A stretch of 51,208 nucleotides of DNA, taken from Candidatus Nealsoniibacteriota bacterium (GTDB lineage: Bacteria; Patescibacteriota; Minisyncoccia; Minisyncoccales; PWPS01). Positions 6,168 through 51,208 of this stretch are shown piece after piece (position 1 is the first letter of the stretch; every line of letters begins with the position of its first letter). The translations under genes and the position numbers were made by a program. The notes under the pieces were generated by a model. The model searched no databases and was not told where the DNA came from. It saw only the letters and a list, made by a program, of their open reading frames with translations. The stretch spans positions 1 through 51,208 of the forward strand of contig PUMQ01000006.1 of the NCBI GenBank assembly GCA_003551435.1, written 5' to 3'.

Positions 6168-6455
6168 TTATTTCTTCTTTTCCTGTTCTCTTTGCATTTT
6201 TCCCCCGTGCCTGACGAACTTCTTTGACGGCGAAAACTCTCCCAGAAGATGGCCAACCATCTCTTCGGTCACGTAAACCTTTATATGCTCCTTTCCGTTA
6301 TAAACACCGAATGTGTACCCTATCATCTCGGGAGTAATGGTTGCTTTTCTTGACCATGTCTTAACAACCGTTTTTTTATCTCCCGGCTTTAAGTTCTCTA
6401 CCTTTTTCAGCAGTTTTTCGTCAATATAGGGCCCTTTTTTTGAACTTCGTGCCAT
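6168..6455 (-). CDS. rpsS: 30S ribosomal protein S19
   Basis: S19 lies in the 30S head near the A-site tRNA. The sequence starts [18 protein letters not shown] and has the conserved [20 protein letters not shown] and [15 protein letters not shown] segments. The 95-aa length is usual. It is between L2 and L22, standard order. Confidence 0.98.
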
Positions 6456-6476
6456 AATACAAACCTTTATTTTTAT

Positions 6477-7256
6477 TTATTTCTTGCCTTTTCTTTTCTT
6501 GGTTGCTCTCTTTATAATATACCTGTCGGTATGCTTTCTTTTTCGGGTGCGGACTCCTCTCGCCTTTTTCCCCCAAGGTGTTTTCGGAGAAGGCATGCCG
6601 ATCGGCGCCCTTCCTTCTCCTCCTCCGTGCGGGTGATCCACCGGATTCATAGCCGATCCCCGGACAACCGGTCTTCTTCCCATTTTTCTTGCAGTTCCTG
6701 CTTTTTTAATTTTCCGGTAGCGGTGTTCCGGATTGGATACTTCTCCCACGGTAGCAAAACAGTCGCTTCTAACCTTTCTTACCTCCCTTGAAGGCATCTT
6801 AAGATGGGTCATTTTCCCCTCGTGAGCGAGAATAAGCGCTCCCAGTCCGGCACTGCGAACCAGCTTGCCCTTTCCCTCCGGATAAAGGCTAACATTGTTT
6901 ACCATGGTACCCACCGGAATATTTTTAAGGCGCATTCTGTTCCCGGGCTTAATCGCCGCCTTCTCAGCGGTAATAATCTCGTCCCCTTCTTTTAATCCCT
7001 GGGGAGCAAGGATATATTTTACATCTCCGTTTTCGTATTTCACAAAAGCGATATCAGCCGTTCTGTTCGGATCATACTCAATGCTGGAAATCTTCCCTTT
7101 AACATCCACTGGTTCCTGTCCAAAGTTAACCCTTCTGTAAAGGCGCTTAACGCCTCCACCCCTGTGCCTTACCGTAATCTTCCCTTGGCTGGATCTTCCT
7201 CCGGTTTTTTTAAGAGGAGTGATTAGCTTTTTCCTTTTTTTTGCTTTTAAATTCAT
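6477..7256 (-). CDS. rplB: 50S ribosomal protein L2, shortened N-terminus
   Basis: L2 is needed for subunit association and peptidyl transfer. The C-terminal VDHPHGGGEGRAPIG signature contains the essential histidine region. The protein (259 aa) is about 15 residues shorter than the common 273-276 aa form: it starts just before KTGGRSSQGKITVRHRGGG and lacks most of the usual N-terminal extension. No upstream in-frame start gives a longer version within the 2-nt gap to L23. Confidence 0.97.
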   Translation of the reverse strand: MNLKAKKRKKLITPLKKTGGRSSQGKITVRHRGGGVKRLYRRVNFGQEPVDVKGKISSIEYDPNRTADIAFVKYENGDVKYILAPQGLKEGDEIITAEKAAIKPGNRMRLKNIPVGTMVNNVSLYPEGKGKLVRSAGLGALILAHEGKMTHLKMPSREVRKVRSDCFATVGEVSNPEHRYRKIKKAGTARKMGRRPVVRGSAMNPVDHPHGGGEGRAPIGMPSPKTPWGKKARGVRTRKRKHTDRYIIKRATKKRKGKK

Positions 7257-7258
7257 TT

Positions 7259-7582
7259 TTACGCGGAAAGATCAATTGTTTGGCCTTTTTTAATCTTTAC
7301 AATCGCTTTTTTATACCCTTTTGTTTTCCCTTCCGTTCTTCCTACTCTCCTTTTCTTGGGCGGAACCTTTATTATCCTTACTTTTTCCACATTCACCTTA
7401 TACTTTTTTTCCGTCTCTTCTTTAATATCTTTTTTATTGGCGCCGTCTTTCACTTTAAAAACGTAAAACCCGCTCTCGGGCAAGGCGGTGGCTTTCTCAC
7501 TGATATGCGGCTTTTCTAAAGCGTGTTTTTCGGACATCTCCTTTAAATCGGTTTCTTTGATTTTCTCCTTTTTCTTTTCCAT
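7259..7582 (-). CDS. rplW: 50S ribosomal protein L23
   Basis: L23 at the tunnel exit is the docking point for trigger factor and SRP. The core runs KPHISEKATALPESGFYVFK to VRIIKVPPKKRRVG and KKAIVKIKKGQTIDLSA. A lysine/glutamate-rich N-terminal extension of about 25 residues precedes the core. The gene lies 3 nt after L4 and 2 nt before L2. Confidence 0.96.
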   Translation of the reverse strand: MEKKKEKIKETDLKEMSEKHALEKPHISEKATALPESGFYVFKVKDGANKKDIKEETEKKYKVNVEKVRIIKVPPKKRRVGRTEGKTKGYKKAIVKIKKGQTIDLSA

Positions 7583-41687: not shown

Positions 41688-43595
41688 TTACATCCGGCTT
41701 TGCACCTCTTCCCACCTTTCTTCTATGTCCTTTTTTAGCTCTTCATTTTCCATTTTACACGCCAAACCGGCCGCCGCTCTGTAAGAATGCTCAAGGCGCG
41801 GCTCTAAATTTATAAATTCCTCAATAATTTCAATTGCTTTTTCAAAATTGCCTCTTCCAACTTCCACTTCCGCCAAAAAGTACAAGGGCCGGGGATTCCT
41901 GGGACTTATAGCGCTTGCCTTTAGCAGAGCTTTTTCCGCCTCCTCAATGTTTCCTTGCGCGGCAAAGTAGCGCGCTTTCTCCATCACTATTAAAAAGTCA
42001 TTGGAAGGGCTTTCTTCTCTCAACTCTTCGGCAAAAAAATCAATCACTTCTTTTCTTTCTTCTTTGCTAACCCAAAATGCACGTTCAAGATAATAGCGCG
42101 CGCTTCTTGATAAAACATACCTCGCATTGCCTCTGTCAAAATCAGAGAGGTTTATAACAGCCCTGCTAACTTTAATTCTCATTTCCGGGTCTTCCTCCAC
42201 AAGTGCCCACGTTAAAAAATAATTCGCCCTTATCGGCTTGTAAAATCCGTTGCAGATAAGAAATCCGCTCAAAACCGCGACTACTGCCATTATCAAGGGC
42301 AGCTTAAGTCTTCCGCATATTTGCGGTTTTATTTCTTTACTATGAGAATAAAAATTGACAAACCCGAAAAATAAAAAGAGCATAATCATGCTACTATAAG
42401 TGTCATACACCGTGAGTTGCTGGGCAAAGTAGGCAGTAATCATGGCCGTAAAAACCGCCGGAGCGTAAAATCCAACCCTTTTCTTTCTATAACTTCTCCA
42501 GAGCAAAACCAAGCTCCCCATGATAAGAGACAAGTGGGCCAGAAGCCCCATAATTCCGGTAGAGGCAAGTTTTTCGTATATTACGTTGTGCGGATCTCTG
42601 CTCCAAATTCCCGGCCTGTCAGAGCCACTGCTTACCAAAAGCTCCGCATCGTAGTGCCTGAAAAATACATGCTGAAAGCTGTTAAGCCCCCACCCTAAAA
42701 TAGGTCTTTCTCTAAATCCTTTCACGGACTGCTCCCAGAAAATATAGCGCATACCGCTGCTTGCTTCGTGAAATCCGGTCCGCAGACTGCTTTCCGCTCT
42801 TCCCAAAGGCCCTTCAAAGAGTCCTCCTCTTACCGGGTGAAATACCAAAAACGAGGCAAAAACAACCAAAGAAACACTGATCCCTAAAACAGCTTTTCCT
42901 ATCTTGCGGATGTTTTCTTTTTCCGCTTTAAAAGCAAGCCACAGCAAAAAAAAGAGAGCCAGTCCTCCTAAAGATCCCGCCAAAGCGGCCATGGAATTAA
43001 AAAAGTACATTAAGGCAATCATCGGCACCGCCCCTCCAAGATAAATCCACTCCTTTTTTTTAAAGGCCAAATAAACGGCAAGAAATACGGTGAAAATAAG
43101 GTAGGTTCCCATAAAAGAAGTGTTTCCCATAAGAGACCCTCTTCTGGGAAATTCCAAGACTTCAAAAATCTGCAGATACCCTACAAGGGTGACAATAAGC
43201 CCTACTCCTACACAAAAAGAAAAGAGCTTTTCCCACTCTCTTTGATTTTGAATTACGCAAGACAAGACAAGAAAAAACCCGATAAGACACAAATAAAGAA
43301 GCAGACCGTTCATATCTCTCGCCCCGCCCCAAAAAGAATCCGCCATATCAAAGCTAAAGACGGTAGACAAAGCCAAAACTCCGGCATATATTCCGGCTAT
43401 AATAACCATGGGCCCGTACCTAAAAGTTCCGCCTTTAAATAAAAAATAAGCAAACAAAAAGAAGATAATTCCTGCCAAAAGGAAAAATATTGCCGCCTTA
43501 GAGCCAGCCTCCGTATACCCTACAATCCCGGGCAAATAAAAAAGCGGAATGAGAAAAACCACATAGATCAATTTTCGGAGTATATTACGAACCAT
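41688..43595 (-). CDS. O-antigen ligase-like membrane protein with C-terminal TPRs
   Basis: A 635-aa polytopic membrane protein with ten or more hydrophobic helices in residues 1 to about 470, and a Wzy_C-type region with the GWGLNSFQHVF and RDPHNVIYEKLASTGIMGLL motifs. This family transfers polyprenyl-linked glycans to lipid A or, in PglL/TfpW-type members, to pilins. The last roughly 150 residues form a soluble domain with TPR-like repeats (NIEEAEKALLKASAISPRNP and RGNFEKAIEIIEEFINLEP). Its place directly after two pilin genes hints at pilin glycosylation, but this cannot be settled from sequence. Confidence 0.82.
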   Translation of the reverse strand: MVRNILRKLIYVVFLIPLFYLPGIVGYTEAGSKAAIFFLLAGIIFFLFAYFLFKGGTFRYGPMVIIAGIYAGVLALSTVFSFDMADSFWGGARDMNGLLLYLCLIGFFLVLSCVIQNQREWEKLFSFCVGVGLIVTLVGYLQIFEVLEFPRRGSLMGNTSFMGTYLIFTVFLAVYLAFKKKEWIYLGGAVPMIALMYFFNSMAALAGSLGGLALFFLLWLAFKAEKENIRKIGKAVLGISVSLVVFASFLVFHPVRGGLFEGPLGRAESSLRTGFHEASSGMRYIFWEQSVKGFRERPILGWGLNSFQHVFFRHYDAELLVSSGSDRPGIWSRDPHNVIYEKLASTGIMGLLAHLSLIMGSLVLLWRSYRKKRVGFYAPAVFTAMITAYFAQQLTVYDTYSSMIMLFLFFGFVNFYSHSKEIKPQICGRLKLPLIMAVVAVLSGFLICNGFYKPIRANYFLTWALVEEDPEMRIKVSRAVINLSDFDRGNARYVLSRSARYYLERAFWVSKEERKEVIDFFAEELREESPSNDFLIVMEKARYFAAQGNIEEAEKALLKASAISPRNPRPLYFLAEVEVGRGNFEKAIEIIEEFINLEPRLEHSYRAAAGLACKMENEELKKDIEERWEEVQSRM

Positions 43596-43746: not shown

Positions 43747-44127
43747 CTAAAAAGTAATTACCAGGCAACCATCTTCACCTAAATCCTCCGCTCCGGCATA
43801 GTTAACACAAGGAGTTGTCTCTGTAACCACCACGCGTCCCCCCGGCTCGGTAAAAGTAAATGTGTAACCTCCTCCGAGCGGATGATTCGGTTCACTAATA
43901 GCAAGGTCATCAAAATCCTCCGGATTTTCCGCATGATCCACTACATAACTGTAAGCGGAAGTCGAGATTGCACTCATTTGAGATCTTATGGTCGCATCTC
44001 TTGCTCTGTCGAGCTGTTCTCCCGGAGCAATGGCCACAATAATAGCGGCAGCGAGAATAGCGACAATGGCAATAACTATAAGAAGCTCAATGAGCGTAAA
44101 ACCCCCTTCTTTATTTTTCACGTGCAT
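43747..44127 (-). CDS. Type IV pilin-like protein (pilin 1)
   Basis: A prepilin with a short leader (MHVKNKEGG) cut before the F of GFTLIELLIVIAIVAILAAA, the class III/IV-pilin N-methylation signature. The conserved glutamate at +5 is present. After the hydrophobic helix there is a soluble domain of about 90 residues with two cysteines near the end (CVNYAGAEDLGEDGC), a possible D-region disulfide. I start at the ATG at 44127 (126 aa). It has its own promoter and a strong terminator, so it can be expressed at a high level; it may be the major pilin. Confidence 0.9.
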   Translation of the reverse strand: MHVKNKEGGFTLIELLIVIAIVAILAAAIIVAIAPGEQLDRARDATIRSQMSAISTSAYSYVVDHAENPEDFDDLAISEPNHPLGGGYTFTFTEPGGRVVVTETTPCVNYAGAEDLGEDGCLVITF

Positions 44128-44190
44128 AATACTTTGCAAATTTTTTAATACGTTTAACTAATAAACATTATAATCGACCTGTATTTCCTC

Positions 44191-44246: not shown

Positions 44247-44747
44247 CTAATAAAGCCTTCCTTCCGGATACCACTCGCTTTCTTCTGCCGGCGGCCTTAT
44301 TCTTAATCTGGTAACCCCGCCCGATTCTTCCGGCTTAAGCTGATAAAAAGTCCTAAGATGAGGGTCCGCCGGAGGACTTTCTCCCAAACCAACCGCCACA
44401 GAGCAGTCCGAGTTAAACTCATACCAGTCTCCGGTTGCTATAACCGTGCACCCGGTACAATCTCCTTCGGTAAAAAAATCTTCTATGGAAGCGCATTTAT
44501 CATCTTCGGCCACCGTCATATGAAAAGCGGTTCCTACAGACACCATGTGGGAAGCTCTTGTTGATTCTCTTGCAAGAAGTAGTCTCTCCCCCGGGGTGAT
44601 AATAACTATTACCGCCGCCGCCAAAATAGAAATGATACCGATAACTATCAAAAGCTCAATTAACGTAAAGCCCTTCCTGGTAATTTCTTTATCAAAATCA
44701 GCAAGCTTTTCCTTGTCTTTTTTATTATTTTTTCCCGCTATTCTCAT
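44247..44747 (-). CDS. Type IV pilin-like protein (pilin 2), long leader
   Basis: A second prepilin, 166 aa, with an unusually long, charged leader of about 26 residues (RIAGKNNKKDKEKLADFDKE and so on) ahead of the KGFTLIELLIVIGIISILAA processing site. The soluble region carries four cysteines (DDKCASIEDFFTEGDCTGC, then FNSDCSVAV), suggesting two disulfides, and is rich in acidic residues. It shares the TPGERLLLARE style region with pilin 1 (APGEQLDRARD), indicating a paralogous pair. It has its own promoter overlapping the end of the PilM gene. Confidence 0.88.
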   Translation of the reverse strand: MRIAGKNNKKDKEKLADFDKEITRKGFTLIELLIVIGIISILAAAVIVIITPGERLLLARESTRASHMVSVGTAFHMTVAEDDKCASIEDFFTEGDCTGCTVIATGDWYEFNSDCSVAVGLGESPPADPHLRTFYQLKPEESGGVTRLRIRPPAEESEWYPEGRLY

Positions 44748-44771: not shown

Positions 44772-44799
44772 ATTCTAGCGGATTGCCCCTTTTAGTCAA
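44772..44799 (-). promoter_or_regulatory. Promoter of pilin 2
   Basis: TTGACT at 44794-44799 and TAGAAT at 44772-44777 with a 16-nt spacer on the minus strand. The -35 box overlaps the stop codon of the coiled-coil/PilM gene. Confidence 0.72.
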
Positions 44800-47700
44800 C
44801 AATGTAGAGAACAGTGTAAGCGTAATATAAGGAAAGGACAAGGGCGGCAAGCCCCAAAATGGCAAGCCCTACTGCCAAATAACGCACCGTCTTTTTCCTT
44901 TCCTGGTGATATCTTTTCTCTCTCTTTTTTACCTCTTCGGGAAGGAAGTTAAATCCGGAATCAATGGGGTCTTTTTCCATTGCTCTTAGGGCGAGTCCTA
45001 TTGCGTTGGTATAAATGAGAGCTTCTTTTTTGTCCAAGGCTTCCGGAGCTTTTATCTTCTTTAACGGATCACCAATCTCTATTCTTTCTCCCAGCTTATC
45101 TTTAAAGTAGTCCAAAATACCGGGCATTAAAGACGAACCTCCGGCAAGAGTTATACTGCCCACTTCGCTCCCAAACTCTCGCGTATAATAATTTTCAGCA
45201 TCTTTTATTTCCTTTGTTATTTTTTCCAGCGACTCAAGAAGCGGCTTCCTTACTTCTCCTCGTAACCCGCTTAGTTTTTTCTTTTCCTCTGCTTCCTCTT
45301 TTTTAATACCCATTGTTTTGGCAATTTTCTCCGTGAAGTAAGCTCCGCCGAAAGGAATGCTCACGGAAAGCAAAAGTACTTTGTTGTAGAAAACACTAAG
45401 AATGGTAGTGCGGGCGCCAATATCCACAATCATCTCACTTTTATTTTCTCCTTTTTCTTCCACCCTTGCTTCATCTTTTTCTTTCTTTTTTTTCTTTTTC
45501 TTGGGGCTTTCTTTCCTGCCCTCGGAAAGAAGAGCTCTTCCGAGCGAGGCTCCTTCTAAATCCAAAACAATGGGATCAACGTCCAAAGAAGAGAGAAACT
45601 CAACGTACTCTTCTACTGCCTTTTTTTGCACAGCGACACACAGCACCCCTTTTTCTTTTTCTCCCGGAAGAAGAATAGTGTGGTAGTTGAAATACAACTC
45701 TTCCATAGGAGCGGGGATATTAGTTTGTATTTTTTCCGTCACTTTCTTTTTAATATCCTCGTCCTCTTTAATTTTAAACTGTTGGATAAATACTTTTGAT
45801 TCGGGCAAGCTCACTATTCCCTTTATTCTCGCTCCTTTTTCGCTTTCCAAGGGCTTGGGTTTTGTCTTCTTAAAGGCCTCCGTAAGAACGTTTTTTAACT
45901 TTTCTTTTTCTCTTATTTTCCCATGGTAAACAACTCCCTCTTCAAGAACTACGCGTCCGAAAGAATTTACCGCTCCTTTCTTTCCAAACGAAAAGAGCTC
46001 AACCGAATAGTCACTTATGTCCATCGCCGTCAGCAAAGGATCTTTAAGGAAGAAATCCTTGCTTGGCTTAAGAGAAAACGGCTTTTTGGGAGCTTTTTGC
46101 GGAGCTTTTTTCTTTTTTTCTTCCAAAGGTTCCTCTTTCTCTTTTTCCTTTTCCACAAAAGACTTCTCTTCTCTTTCCAGGGGAGGTTTTTTATAGAGCG
46201 ACTGGTAGGTATAAACCTCGTCTTTCTTTCTCCTTTTTGCCGGGCCCCATTTTTCTATCCTTTCTATTTTGCTCCTCAGGCCCTTCTCCCTGTCTGTTAG
46301 CTCGTTATACTTTTTGTTTACCTCTTCAACTTCTTTTTCCACCTCGCTAAATCTTTTCTCCCACTTTTCCTCGGTTTCTTCTTTTATGAGCCGCCTTAAC
46401 TCCTCCTCCATTTCCTTTTTTCTTCTCTTTATTTCTTCTTTCTCCTCGTCGTTTGACGCCGTCTTTTCTTTTTCTTCAAGTTTTTTCTTTTCTTCCTCAA
46501 TGGCTTCTTCCTTCTTTTTGATTTTTTCAAGATGTTTTTCCTTTTCTTCTTCCGCTTTTCTTTGCGCTTCTTCTCGTACTTTCGCCAGTCTTTCTCTCTC
46601 TGCCACAATCCTTTCTATTTCCTTGGAAAGCTCTTCTTTGGACGGCTCACTCGCTCTCTCCCTTATTATTTCTCGTACCACCGTCTGCGGAGCGGGTTGT
46701 GCTGTTTCTTTCCTTTCCTCTGTTTCCACAATATTTTCTCCAAGCTTTTTTTCAAATTTCATTCTTTCTTCTTCAAGCTCTTCAAACTGTTCCCTGAGCC
46801 GCGCTACCTCCTGCAAGTTGCCTTCATCTTCTTCTTCCTTTATTCTTTTCTCCATCTCCCTCCTTTTTTCCAAGGCATCTTGTATTTTTTCTTCCACTTC
46901 TTTTCTTTCTTTATAGATGTCCTTTGTGTCGGTAGCCGGAACTTCTTCTTCCCCTCCCCTTCCTTCCTTTTCGTTTATTTTTCCAAGATACTCGGCAGCT
47001 CTCTCATTTAGAGGCCTTCCTTTCACCGCTCCGAAAAAAGACTTTTCATCATCCGGTTTGTAGCCATCTCTTATTCTTTCAAAACGCGCTCTCGCTTCTC
47101 CGTAATTTCCGGCAAAAAAACTATTTTCCGCCCTTTTAAAAAGGGCTTCCGCTTCACTGTGCTCAAGCTTTATTTCTTTTTCCTCTTCTTTTTTAGTATC
47201 ATAGGGCGCCCTGTAGTGTTCTTCTTTGGGAGCTTCTCTTACTTCCTCTCTTCTTTCGCGAGGCGCCTCCACCTCTCTTAATCTTTCTTTTTCTTTTCTT
47301 ATGCTTTGGCGGACTGATCCGAGCCGGTCTCTTTCATCGTCATACCTTTCTTCTGACATTCTCTCTCTTTTTTTTGCTTCTCCCTGTTCCTCCAATTCTT
47401 TTTCTTTTTGTGCCAGCTTTTCGTACTCTTTCTTTACCCTTTCTTTTATAATGTCAATTTGCTTTTTTTCCTCGGCAAGTTTCTCTTCAACCGCTTTCTC
47501 CACGCTTTCGTCGCTTACCTTCTCCCTCCCGGCCACTTTTGCTTCCATCTCTTTTTCCTTTCTGGCTACCTCTTCTTTTAGAGAGGAGATTTCTTCTTTG
47601 TTGCTTTTTATAATACTAAGGAGGTCGTCCATCTTCTTTTTTAGCTCCTCATCTTCCCTTCCGTCTTTTTTCTCCTCTTTTACCTCCTCTTTTTTCACTT

Positions 47701-48325
47701 CTTCTTGTCTATCTTCTCTGGTCTGTTTGTCCTCCGAAGCCTTCATAAAGGAAGAGTCCTGTCGAAGGGTTTTTCCTCTCTTTTTTTCGATTGCAATTTC
47801 TTTTTTTAGAGCAGGAATTCTTTGCTTTGCTTTTTTGACGTAAACATCAATCTTTTTTATTCTTACTCCGTTCCTTTTTCTCCTCTGCCTTATCTTCTCG
47901 GTTATTATTTTTTCCAAGCTTCTCTTTTTTTTCTCCAGGCTTCTTATTTCATCCTCCACTTCCCACTTCTTGTTCTCTACTTGTCTTCTTTCTTCTTCGG
48001 CTCTCCATCTCTTTTTTTCTATCTCCCTCTTTCTCGCAGGTTCTTTTTCCTTTCTTTCTTCTTCTTCTATTTTTTTCTTTTGCGCTTTTATGCGCGAATC
48101 CTTCTCTTCAAAAAAAGCCACTCTTTTTCTGAGAGCTTTCCCTTTTTTTAGAATAAGAGATCTTTTTTTCTTAAGTTCGTTTTCCCTGCTTGAGAGTTTC
48201 TTCAGGTTTTTTTCTCTCAGCTTCTTTTCTTCAATCGCTTTTTGCAACCCCCTCCTTAATCCTTGCAACTTTTCTTGCAATTCTCTTGTGTCAGTTGAGT
48301 TATTTTGTTTTTTAAATCCCTCCAT
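44792..48325 (-). CDS. Giant coiled-coil protein fused to a PilM-like domain
   Basis: A 1177-aa protein in three parts. Residues 1 to about 750 are almost unbroken charged coiled coil with a TPR-like patch near 400 (EALFKRAENSFFAGNYGEAR). Residues about 765-1118 form a PilM-type actin-like ATPase: LTAMDISDYSVELFSFG (phosphate 1), MIVDIGARTTILSVFY (phosphate 2) and ITLAGGSSLMPGILDYF (adenosine), with a lysine-rich insertion near residue 940. The end (FNFLPEEVKKREKRYHQE then a membrane helix, about 1149-1172) looks like the start of PilN. PilM normally is 350 aa and binds the N-terminus of PilN; here that piece is fused in cis. It probably joins the pilus motor to the membrane. Confidence 0.85.
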   Translation of the reverse strand: MEGFKKQNNSTDTRELQEKLQGLRRGLQKAIEEKKLREKNLKKLSSRENELKKKRSLILKKGKALRKRVAFFEEKDSRIKAQKKKIEEEERKEKEPARKREIEKKRWRAEEERRQVENKKWEVEDEIRSLEKKKRSLEKIITEKIRQRRKRNGVRIKKIDVYVKKAKQRIPALKKEIAIEKKRGKTLRQDSSFMKASEDKQTREDRQEEVKKEEVKEEKKDGREDEELKKKMDDLLSIIKSNKEEISSLKEEVARKEKEMEAKVAGREKVSDESVEKAVEEKLAEEKKQIDIIKERVKKEYEKLAQKEKELEEQGEAKKRERMSEERYDDERDRLGSVRQSIRKEKERLREVEAPRERREEVREAPKEEHYRAPYDTKKEEEKEIKLEHSEAEALFKRAENSFFAGNYGEARARFERIRDGYKPDDEKSFFGAVKGRPLNERAAEYLGKINEKEGRGGEEEVPATDTKDIYKERKEVEEKIQDALEKRREMEKRIKEEEDEGNLQEVARLREQFEELEEERMKFEKKLGENIVETEERKETAQPAPQTVVREIIRERASEPSKEELSKEIERIVAERERLAKVREEAQRKAEEEKEKHLEKIKKKEEAIEEEKKKLEEKEKTASNDEEKEEIKRRKKEMEEELRRLIKEETEEKWEKRFSEVEKEVEEVNKKYNELTDREKGLRSKIERIEKWGPAKRRKKDEVYTYQSLYKKPPLEREEKSFVEKEKEKEEPLEEKKKKAPQKAPKKPFSLKPSKDFFLKDPLLTAMDISDYSVELFSFGKKGAVNSFGRVVLEEGVVYHGKIREKEKLKNVLTEAFKKTKPKPLESEKGARIKGIVSLPESKVFIQQFKIKEDEDIKKKVTEKIQTNIPAPMEELYFNYHTILLPGEKEKGVLCVAVQKKAVEEYVEFLSSLDVDPIVLDLEGASLGRALLSEGRKESPKKKKKKKEKDEARVEEKGENKSEMIVDIGARTTILSVFYNKVLLLSVSIPFGGAYFTEKIAKTMGIKKEEAEEKKKLSGLRGEVRKPLLESLEKITKEIKDAENYYTREFGSEVGSITLAGGSSLMPGILDYFKDKLGERIEIGDPLKKIKAPEALDKKEALIYTNAIGLALRAMEKDPIDSGFNFLPEEVKKREKRYHQERKKTVRYLAVGLAILGLAALVLSLYYAYTVLYIVD

Positions 48326-48352: not shown

Positions 48353-49399
48353 TTAAATTCCGGTTGTGATCTGATACACCGGCAAAACTATAGCGCTGGC
48401 AATAAAGGCGACAACAAGTCCGATAAAGATAAGTAAAATCGGCTCTATCACAGTAGGAAGTCTTCTTGTTTTTTCGGTTACTCTGCCCCCGAAAAAGTTG
48501 GCTAAATAAGAAAGGGCTTCGCTGTATGACCCGGAAGACTCTCCTGTGGTAACCACGCTTATAAACACCTCCGGGTAAAGTTGCGGGTGGGAGTTAAGCG
48601 CTTGGGAAAGGCTTGTCCCTTTTTCCACTTTCTCAATCACCGCCCCGAGAGATTTGGCATACTGGCTGTTTGTCACTGATTCGGAAACAATTGCTAGCGT
48701 TTGTCTTAAAGGAAGCCCGCTTTTAAAAAGGATGGCCATAAGTTGAGAGATGATGGTCAGCTGGTACTCTCGGTTCAAACTCCCGAAAACAGGAAGTTTG
48801 AGCATTATCCTGTCAATTACTCTTTTAACGGCCGTTACTTTTAAAAGAAGGAAGAAAAGAATGAGAAAAGCAAACAACCCGCCGAAAAAATAGAGGCCGT
48901 AGTTTTGCATCAAGTTGGAAAACCAGAGGAGAATTAAAGTTGTAATGGGAAGTTCTACATCAAGCCCTTCAAAAACCGTGGTTAGTTGTGGAAGAACAAA
49001 AACGGAAAGCCCTCCCCCGAGTATAGCGGCGAAAATAACGATTATCTTAGGATAAAGAGTGGCCGAACTCATCTCTTTTTTCAAAGTATTTTGCCTTTCA
49101 ATCCAGTCGCCAAGAAACTCAAGGTTCTCGTCAAGCGTTCCGCTCTCCTCTCCGGCGCGAATAAAGCTTATAAAAACGTTGTCAAAGTTCTTGTCTTCCT
49201 CAAACACTTGGTGGATAGGCGTTCCTTGTTCCGTTCTTTCTCTTGCTTTAATAAGCACTTTTTTAAGAGACGGATTCCGTGCCTGCTCGGCAAGAAGATT
49301 GAAGGACTCATTTATCGGATGCCCGCTTCTGATAAGAAGGGAGAGGTTCCTTACAAAGTCAACCTTCTGCTGGATTGGTATCTGTTCTAAAATAGCCAT
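48353..49399 (-). CDS. pilC: Type IV pilus inner-membrane platform PilC
   Basis: PilC/GspF is the inner-membrane protein that couples the PilB motor to the growing pilus. It has two T2SSF domains, each with a helix-rich cytoplasmic part: VDFVRNLSLLIRSGHPINES and the second LTIISQLMAILFKSGLPLRQ, and the FIRAGEESGTLDENLEFLGD and VVTTGESSGSYSEALSYLAN signatures. Three membrane segments include the C-terminal one (LIFIGLVVAFIASAIVLPVY). At 348 aa it is slightly short. It lies 12 nt after the receiver gene. Confidence 0.94.
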   Translation of the reverse strand: MAILEQIPIQQKVDFVRNLSLLIRSGHPINESFNLLAEQARNPSLKKVLIKARERTEQGTPIHQVFEEDKNFDNVFISFIRAGEESGTLDENLEFLGDWIERQNTLKKEMSSATLYPKIIVIFAAILGGGLSVFVLPQLTTVFEGLDVELPITTLILLWFSNLMQNYGLYFFGGLFAFLILFFLLLKVTAVKRVIDRIMLKLPVFGSLNREYQLTIISQLMAILFKSGLPLRQTLAIVSESVTNSQYAKSLGAVIEKVEKGTSLSQALNSHPQLYPEVFISVVTTGESSGSYSEALSYLANFFGGRVTEKTRRLPTVIEPILLIFIGLVVAFIASAIVLPVYQITTGI

Positions 49400-49411
49400 A
49401 ATATCACAAAA

Positions 49412-49789
49412 CTAACTAACGATTTCTTTTATTCTTTCTAGAAAATCAGAAAAATTGGTTTCCGACTTAATAAAGTAGTCCTTGGCTCCCAGCCTTCTCC
49501 CTTCTTCTATGTCTATATCTTGCTTAAGGTTAGAAAGAATAATAACCGGCACTTCCACAATCATTCCGCTTTCGTTCATCTCTTCTAAAATATCAAATCC
49601 GCTCCTCATGGGAAGCAAAATGTCCAAAATAACAAGATCCGGGTTTTCGTTGACTATCTTGTTCATTCCCTCTACCCCGCTTGTCGCTTCAATAAAGTTA
49701 AAGCCCTCTCTTTCCAGCTTGTCCCGGTAAAGATTTCTCAAGAAAGAGTCATCTTCAATCATTAAAATTGTTTTTTTCCTTTCATCCAT
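49412..49789 (-). CDS. Stand-alone response-regulator receiver (CheY/PilG-like)
   Basis: A 125-aa single receiver domain with no output domain. The acidic pair is aspartate 13 and 14 (LMIEDDSF), the phospho-acceptor is aspartate 56 (LVILDILLPMRSGF), serine 86 replaces the usual threonine and lysine 108 closes the site. It is just 5 nt downstream of the histidine kinase gene and 12 nt before pilC, so the pair is a two-component system placed inside the pilus operon; it may act directly on the pilus motor. Confidence 0.92.
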   Translation of the reverse strand: MDERKKTILMIEDDSFLRNLYRDKLEREGFNFIEATSGVEGMNKIVNENPDLVILDILLPMRSGFDILEEMNESGMIVEVPVIILSNLKQDIDIEEGRRLGAKDYFIKSETNFSDFLERIKEIVS

Positions 49790-49794
49790 GTTTT

Positions 49795-50523
49795 TTAACT
49801 TTCAATATTTTCTTTTTTCAAAGGAAGAGTAAAGTAAAAAGTTGCTCCCCCTTCTTTGTTATTTTCCACCCACGTTTTCCCTCCGCAGTCCTCTATAATC
49901 ACCTTGCTTATATAAAGCCCTAATCCGAGACTGTTTGGATCTATCTCTATCGCTCTTTTTGTCCGGTAAAACTTTTCAAATATTTTTTCTTTTTCTTTCT
50001 CGGGAACTCCCGTCCCGCTGTCTTTGATAGAGACAATCGCTTCATTCTCCTTCTTTTCAATCTTTACTTCCACTTTTCCCTCCCCTTCCTTTTTATATTT
50101 TATAGCATTAACAAGAAAAGCGTCTATCACATTCTGTATCTTATCCGGGTCGGTAACAACAGAAAGGGACCTTTCTCCGGTGGCAAGAGATATTTTGGCA
50201 TTTGACGCCCGAGCTAAGAAAACGCTTTTTCCCACCGCTTCATCTGCCGCCAGTACAATATCTACCGGCTCTTTTTTTATCTCGTACCTTCCCTCTTCTA
50301 TTTCCACCACGCAAATAAGGTTGGTTACGATGTGGTTTACTTCTTCCGCACTCTCCAGGCAAATTTTCAAGTACTTTTTCTGCTTCTCGCTGAGTTCTCC
50401 CAAGTCTCCGGAAAAAAGGGCGTCAAGGTACCCCCTCAGGATATAGACAGGATTCCTCATGTGATGGACAACCGCCGAAAAAGAATCAACTCCTTTTTTT
50501 TCTTTGTTTTTATTATCACTCAT
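49795..50523 (-). CDS. Cytosolic histidine kinase lacking a sensor domain
   Basis: A 242-aa kinase made of only the dimerisation/phosphotransfer (HisKA) and ATP-binding domains. The phospho-histidine is at residue 20 in [15 protein letters not shown]-box [11 protein letters not shown]1 [10 protein letters not shown] and G2 [14 protein letters not shown] are complete. There is no membrane helix and no PAS, GAF or HAMP domain before the histidine, so it has no evident signal input of its own. Its ATG overlaps the pilB stop by 4 nt. It is expected to phosphorylate the downstream receiver. Confidence 0.92.
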
Positions 50524-51208
50524 GTTTTTGCCGTCTTTCTTACTTCGGAAATAGTGGTTATTCCAAGAAGCGCCTTCTGAATACCGTCATAAACCATGGG
50601 GGTCATCCCTTCTTCTACCGCCTTTTTCCTTAAAACGTCAGAAGAACTCTTTTCGTTTATAAGTTCCCTTAGTTTTTCTGTCACTTCCAAAACCTCAAAA
50701 ACAGATGTTCTTCCTTCATATCCCGTGTCTTCGCAAAGATCACACCCCCGCCCGCGGAAAAAACGGACCTGCCTTATGTCTTCCTTGCCGGATATCACTT
50801 TTACCATTTCCGTAAAGTGCTTGTCCTCGGAGATTTCAGCTGCTTCTTCTTCACTTAAAAAGTAGCTCTCTCTGCACGACTCGCATATTTTGTGAACCAG
50901 CCTTTGGGCGATAGAGACATTTACCGCCGAAGCAATAAGAAACGGCTCTACCCCCATTTCCAAAAGGCGGGGGAAAGCGGTAGCCGCATCATTGGCATGC
51001 ATAGTAGAGAGAACCAAATGCCCTGTCATGGCAGCATCCACCGCCATATCCACCGTCTCGCTGTCCCGAATCTCACCTACCATAATAATGTCCGGGTCTT
51101 GCCTTACAATAGAGCGCAGTCCAGTAGCGAAAGTGAGTTCTTTTTTCGGATTTACCTGCGCTTGCTGTACTCCGTCCACATTGTACTCCACCGGATCTTC
51201 AATAGTCA
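50520..51208 (-). CDS. pilB: Type IV pilus assembly ATPase PilB, C-terminal part (cut by window edge)
   Basis: The 3' portion (229 codons) of a GspE/PilB hexameric ATPase that powers pilus extension. It starts in the window in a [12 protein letters not shown] segment (Asp box), then [20 protein letters not shown] (Walker B), [20 protein letters not shown] (His box) and a zinc tetracysteine CESC with CDLC (cysteines CESCRESYF and [13 protein letters not shown]). The first part, including the P-loop, lies outside. It overlaps the histidine kinase gene by 4 nt. Confidence 0.95.

Follow-up and report, generated by a model that had tools for sequence, protein, structure and literature searches.

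We analyzed a stretch of 51,208 nucleotides from a Candidatus Nealsoniibacteriota bacterium (contig PUMQ01000006.1 of assembly GCA_003551435.1; the whole stretch is referred to as the window), which is contig C9 of a 21-contig, 599-kb genome whose completeness is rated 100%. We found that one gene on its minus strand (44792..48325) encodes a 1177-residue protein in which a helical arm, the actin-like domain of the type IV pilus protein PilM, the motif NFLPEE, and a membrane helix follow one another in a single chain, and that this fusion represents the PilM that belongs to a second pilus system in the genome (hereafter PilM2). We consider it fairly probable that PilM2 as a whole is a self-liganded, membrane-anchored PilM in a second machine of the type IV pilus type, with the arm most likely a docking scaffold. 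Among the parts of this reading, the fusion and the self-liganding appear highly probable, and the scaffold role of the arm is put forward tentatively. The architecture is real and conserved. An earlier note on this DNA knew of no description of it, and it is undescribed as far as the searchable open-licence papers go, where we did not find it. Searches gave no relative among viral contigs and no match in PHROGs.

The fused gene and its PilM and PilN parts

The 1177-residue fusion is a real gene and not an assembly artefact. In the list of open reading frames it is a single frame that begins with ATG and is open throughout, and its start codon is backed by a conserved MEG in four other pilus loci (designated by L numbers: L061, L062, L063, and L126). 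The first three of these, all from congeners (Ca. Nealsonbacteria), carry the same fused architecture, joined at the same point, and are 48-51% identical to the window protein. The earlier note had allowed that a sequencing error might have joined two genes, and this possibility has some appeal, since the arm and PilM2 are naturally separate genes in L066 and in L072/L129 and overlap in two frames in L059/L074. However, because independent congener genomes carry the same fusion, and with the window gene forming one uninterrupted frame, we rejected an assembly or sequencing error as extremely improbable. As for the overlapping pair (L059:2852-6469 and 6427-7404, on the same contig as L074), it may represent either a frameshift error or a natural split.

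The PilM domain spans residues 768-1115 (44981..46024, minus strand) and matches PilM_2 (PF11104) with an E-value of 4.5e-33, scoring 115 bits where the gathering cut-off is 27. AlphaFold, run on the PilM part with 29 relatives, gave a predicted local distance difference test score (pLDDT) of 87 and a predicted template modelling score of 0.85, and all top ten Foldseek matches of the resulting model were PilM structures or models. The top match was 5EOU (root-mean-square deviation 4.4-4.9); the deviation was 3.4 for the PilM-PilN structure 2YCH and 6.4-7.0 for PilN-free PilM, so that the PilN-bound forms lie closest. With the PilM of type IVa pili (PF11104; 5EOU, 2YCH) the domain thus shares the actin-like fold, the nucleotide-loop motifs DISD, DIGA, and AGG, and the partner motif NLLP. 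Unlike an ordinary PilM, which is a soluble protein of about 350 residues that binds PilN in trans, the window protein has the start of PilN and a membrane helix in cis, as well as an N-terminal extension of about 760 residues. The chain 5EOU, an engineered P. aeruginosa PilM:PilN1-12 chimera, is also among the nearest PDB chains by sequence, and the alignment passes through the GLALR...INLLP join; both proteins have the same order of PilM C-terminus, short linker, and INLLP, but 5EOU is a laboratory construct, whereas the natural protein runs on into a membrane helix. A further relative is the Amuc_1101 family (NF045709) of PilM-like pilus proteins, whose 608-position model extends beyond PilM and aligns to residues 961-1166 of the window protein, including the membrane helix, although at 81 of 650 bits the window protein lies far under the equivalog cut-off. 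To our knowledge, no helical arm is known in that family.

Behind the PilM domain, the motif NFLPEE (residues 1126-1131; 44933..44950, minus strand) equals the PilN start of sister loci, and its N, L, and P are invariant across 14 fused sequences, the others of which are 32-62% identical to the window protein. The chain ends with a single hydrophobic helix (residues 1145-1177; 44795..44893, minus strand) that was located by hydropathy (Kyte-Doolittle maximum 2.24) and corresponds to helix 386-432 of the PilM-domain model. PilN begins with an NLLP motif and then a membrane helix, and the same succession is found here in NFLPEE and the helix. In 24 of the 30 order-level pilus loci of our canonical comparison set, PilM ends with GLALR or a similar sequence and the next gene starts with (M)INLL(P), followed by a membrane helix; the fused proteins show the corresponding layout of GLALR, about 10 residues, INLLPEE, a basic stretch, and the helix. 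A profile built from the PilN starts of the canonical loci, searched together with 688 control open reading frames, located fused tails exactly at NLLP, with a best E-value of 5e-4. Judged by its sequence, the C-terminal part is a PilM that runs on into PilN, of which it includes the first ~45 residues.

The remainder of PilN is missing: the chain stops after the helix, and neither the periplasmic coiled coil nor the ferredoxin-like domain of PilN is present in the window protein. The PilN model PF05137, which the earlier note had proposed to search alongside PF11104, has no match at E<=1 in the whole genome, a weak absence given that only 2 of 14 control genomes yield a match above its cut-off; the PilN-like part consists only of the N-terminal motif and the membrane helix. 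Many relatives have an extra stretch outside after the helix, which in L078 and L080 is a bacterial SH3 domain that exceeds the Pfam cut-off; nothing follows the helix in the window protein or in L044/L073, L045, L052, L065, and L071. In L076 the chain ends right after NLLP without a helix, and in L075 and L079 it ends after a similar NLL/NLI tail. We therefore did not see the periplasmic domain of PilN in this group; either nothing replaces it or a possible wall-binding domain does. An SH3b domain hidden downstream of the window's membrane helix was considered and rejected, as only about 45 bases separate the helix from the next gene and no SH3_3 lies above the cut-off in the genome. In four loci (L046:2687-3118, L047:2128-2592, L048:524-1033, and L129:4129-4491), pilM2 is followed by a small membrane protein of 120-169 residues that resembles the helix-plus-SH3b tail of PilM2.

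Two pilus systems in one genome

The gene lies in a pilus locus of its own, in which the order on the minus strand is pilB2, the genes for a histidine kinase and a lone receiver, pilC2, the fusion, and two pilins. Upstream of the fusion are the platform protein gene pilC2 (48353..49399; T2SSF, E 3e-54), a response regulator that consists of a receiver domain only (49412..49789; PF00072, E 1.5e-19), a histidine kinase with HisKA and HATPase domains (49795..50523; PF00512, E 8.6e-10; PF02518, E 8.4e-25), and the C-terminal part of pilB2 (50520..51206), which runs off the contig. This last gene is broken between contigs: its N-terminal 334 residues end contig C12 (L008:2004) and the rest starts at window position 51206, with T2SSE positions 5-169 matched at the end of C12 and 175-369 here, and C9 and C12 are probably neighbouring contigs. 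Downstream follow two type IV pilins (44247..44747, N_methyl E 3.5e-8; 43747..44139, N_methyl E 9.5e-10). PilB2, the kinase, the response regulator, PilC2, PilM2, and a pilin are syntenic in the congeners, where they are followed by TatD and LeuRS. No pilN, pilO, or pilT is present within the locus. Next to the pilins the window encodes a membrane protein of the Wzy_C (O-antigen ligase) type that carries tetratricopeptide repeats (TPRs) at its C-terminus (41688-43595), which is not found at that place in the congeners and could be a pilin glycosyl ligase.

A complete ordinary set is encoded on contig C10, with a PilM of 352 residues (PilM1), a PilN-like protein of 203 residues (PilN1), PilO (PF04350, E 3.6e-13), PilB, PilT, PilC, pilins, and PilD; the PilN-like protein (L003:1420-2031) was named by position and topology only. 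PilB1 (L003:2969-6028) has 1019 residues with four tandem MshEN domains, compared with one such match in PilB2. With this ordinary set on C10 and the PilM2 locus on C9, the genome has two pilus systems. The earlier note had named a normal PilM and PilN pair in another locus as a finding that would refute its proposal, and C10 holds a normal PilM with a PilN-like protein; the fused protein therefore belongs to a second system and is not the genome's sole PilM.

The two kinds of PilM are also separated in a tree of 67 PilM domains, in which one branch with a support of 100/96 splits PilM1 from PilM2. PilM1 belongs to a canonical class of loci whose PilN-like protein does not start with NLLP (L003, L025, L036, L037, and L039), and the PilMs of this class form a group of their own. 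Every arm-bearing PilM2 falls within one group of 14 PilM2 rows (100/99), and among these rows the contigs of L064, L067, and L070 start too early for the whole arm to be seen. Frames of more than 850 residues occur in three families of the order (f1, f3, and f22); fused tails without an arm are more widespread, in records named Wolfebacteria, Parcubacteria, and others. This distribution suggests that PilM first gained the start of PilN and that the arm came later in one clade, where it was then fused or split.

Another Patescibacterium, the Saccharibacteria member TM7x, has been described as having a complete first system and a second one that lacks a retraction ATPase of its own; there, this PilT-less pilus helps host binding (PMC12206443). 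Unlike the locus described here, the second system of TM7x has separate PilM2, PilN2, and PilO2 proteins, and no arm is mentioned (PMC12206443).

The helical arm

The N-terminal arm comprises about 690 charged, helical residues. Over residues 1-780, 43-72% of the residues are charged, hydrophobic residues make up only 15-30% of the arm, and heptad periodicity is moderate in some of the 11 segments analyzed and absent in others (z about -0.8 to 3.7). In the AlphaFold model, the arm (all coordinates on the minus strand) consists of four helical hairpins and one TPR-like module: hairpin 1 (residues 9-190, helices 9-92/96-190; 47756..48301; pLDDT mostly 78-92), hairpin 2 (residues 220-353, helices 220-269/273-353; 47267..47668; moderate confidence), the TPR-like module, hairpin 3 (residues 467-541, helices 467-500/504-541; 46703..46927; pLDDT mostly 86-94), and hairpin 4 (residues 563-691, helices 563-622/626-691; 46253..46639; moderate confidence). 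Low-confidence linkers lie at about residues 190-212, 353-388, 541-563, and 691-763, the last of which is a disordered linker to PilM (46037..46255; pLDDT < 50). Given the patchy heptads and a model made of hairpins and linkers, a single long rod is not supported. Of the chain that the earlier note had described, the PilM domain, the TPR-like patch, and the LPEE motif with its membrane helix were all recovered; the single 750-residue coiled coil was not confirmed, the predicted arm being segmented.

The TPR-like module (residues 393-454; 46964..47149, minus strand) was recognised by a hidden Markov model of the repeat unit built from relatives (28.2 bits, E 1.7e-9), with 7.4 bits as the best score among 360 locally shuffled sequences, and AlphaFold folds the region 389-455 into three helices (389-404, 408-421, and 439-455), with a pLDDT of 91-95 in most of them. 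No Pfam TPR matches the window protein; the arm protein of L072, which shares the TPR-like unit with it, passes the Pfam cut-off for TPR_2 (40 against 27 bits). Relatives that carry the unit have 1-8 copies, and none was seen in L062 and L063.

Near the N-terminus, residues 90-148 (47882..48058, minus strand), beside the tip of hairpin 1, form a conserved head motif around KKR.IE..RW..E.RR..E...W..ED. Its profile finds it at positions 87-156 in all complete arms except that of L071, with E-values from 1e-14 to 1e-23 (best shuffled score 7.7 bits). Since the motif is present both in fused arms (window, L061-L063, L069, and L045) and in separate ones (L066 and L072), the two forms are homologous. 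Separate arms end with NLDDLDFKL or DISDLDLKF, and the PilM2 that comes after them begins with an N-terminal module of ~46 residues (ETIKKARERGA...NPEK; L066:5671-5810, L072:5737-5870, and L070:240-380), which may be a docking site for the separate arm. The length of the arm ahead of PilM varies from 248 (L069) to 1231 residues (L045). The protein of L071 (3463-7206; UBA4067), which has no head motif, carries in its place, ahead of the helical arm, an Hsp70-type stretch (residues 45-245; PF00012 positions 379-589, E 4e-39), which is the portion of Hsp70 that bears the substrate-binding domain.

Proposed mechanism and alternative readings

In ordinary systems, PilM is cytoplasmic and binds PilN, a membrane protein, at its NLLP start, and the domains of PilM close upon this binding, as can also be read from the contrast between the PDB matches of the window domain. 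In PilM2, the NLLP start and the membrane helix of PilN continue from the protein's own C-terminus, and PilM2 is predicted to be held in the PilN-bound (closed) form with the motif docked on PilM. The protein would then sit at the membrane, locked closed, permanently presenting the surface that faces PilB2 and PilC2, to which PilB2 may be permanently docked. A single chain would in this way do the cytoplasmic and the membrane half of the job of PilMNO, in a cell that probably lacks an outer membrane, and PilM2 would form the usual collar at PilB2 and PilC2 with no need for PilN. In both M. xanthus and P. aeruginosa, contact between PilB and PilM is known from experiments (PMC11580455, PMC8389850). 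The arm, finally, would most likely hang from the PilM2 ring around PilB2 and offer a docking scaffold in the cytoplasm, by which a partner is recruited or positioned. The best functional analogy for this role would be found in M. xanthus, in which the TPR protein SgmX and the coiled-coil protein FrzS activate and place the pilus machine (PMC11580455); these are separate proteins without a fusion to PilM, and the analogy concerns function only.

Several observations weigh against this reading. The window protein misses the cut-off of the NCBIfam model for pilM (TIGR01175) with 100 against 133 bits (PilM1 of the same genome scores 137.6), and its own tail is not among the best hits of the PilN-start profile. 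AlphaFold gives a pLDDT of 91-93 over linker and motif when the PilM domain is modelled alone, but only 37-59 for the motif region in the full-length chain, which was modelled with a shallower alignment (10 relatives), and docking in cis is therefore a prediction of moderate strength. Furthermore, the data identify no partner of the arm, and arm-bearing loci vary in the presence of the kinase and response regulator. We rejected these two as obligate arm partners, as L066 has just the response regulator and neither of the two was seen near the arm gene in L069, L071, and L073.

It is also possible that the motif fills the groove of a neighbour within the ring. Such an arrangement in trans, which would give a continuous ring or filament or let the tail compete with another PilN for PilM1, is favored by the linker of only about 10 residues between GLALR and NLLP, by published models that show PilM rings, and by L075, L076, and L079, which keep an NLLP or similar tail without a membrane helix. 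The confident linker and motif of the single-domain model are nevertheless consistent with docking in cis, and cross-talk with PilM1 is unlikely because PilN1 lacks NLLP and PilM1 groups with other PilMs whose PilN lacks it; overall, we regard docking in trans as unlikely. We find it improbable, although a secretin was not searched for, that the locus encodes a secretion or DNA-uptake machine of the type II secretion kind instead of a surface pilus, with PilM2 as a shortened GspL. GspL/EpsL does combine a PilM-type cytoplasmic domain, a membrane helix, and a PilN-type periplasmic domain in one chain (PMC3815138), and the locus has no PilT, but the window protein lacks the ferredoxin-like periplasmic domain of GspL, T2SSL (PF05134) does not match it at an E-value of 0.1, its closest relatives in sequence and fold are PilMs, and it contains the PilN motif NLLP.

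The earlier note had offered a spring or a tether as functions of the arm, alongside a scaffold. With linkers of ~20-70 residues between them, the four helix pairs could reach across several tens of nanometres, a relevant distance in an ultrasmall cell, and might link the pilus motor mechanically to a distant structure in the cytoplasm, such as the nucleoid, the division ring, or the opposite wall. Against this, no distal anchor domain was recognised in the arm, which is segmented rather than one rod; its length (248-1231 residues) and its number of TPR-like copies vary, so that a fixed reach is not conserved; and the part that is conserved, the head motif, lies close to the N-terminus. A mechanical role as tether or spring thus seems a poor candidate, and a docking scaffold fits the segmented arm, with its hairpins, its linkers, and the TPR-like modules in several relatives, better than a spring does.

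Overall, the fusion is a variant within the PilM/GspL kind and does not amount to a system of a new kind. The PilM-PilN join that structural biologists engineered to study the bound state of PilM also exists in nature, where the remainder of PilN has been dropped. It can therefore serve to test, in a natural protein, whether the binding of PilN acts as a dynamic switch or serves only as an anchor, and which elements of the alignment complex a cell without an evident outer membrane needs. The conserved arm with its variable TPR-like copies points to an undescribed cytoplasmic pilus component in ultrasmall, probably host-attached bacteria. We speculate, with some reserve, that Patescibacteria possess a pilus machine specific to them, in which a self-liganded PilM replaces the PilMNO alignment complex and the modular arm of TPR-like units and hairpins is a dedicated cytoplasmic hub that places or regulates the second pilus, possibly a host-attachment pilus. 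In the sole case studied, TM7x, the second pilus mediates host binding (PMC12206443).

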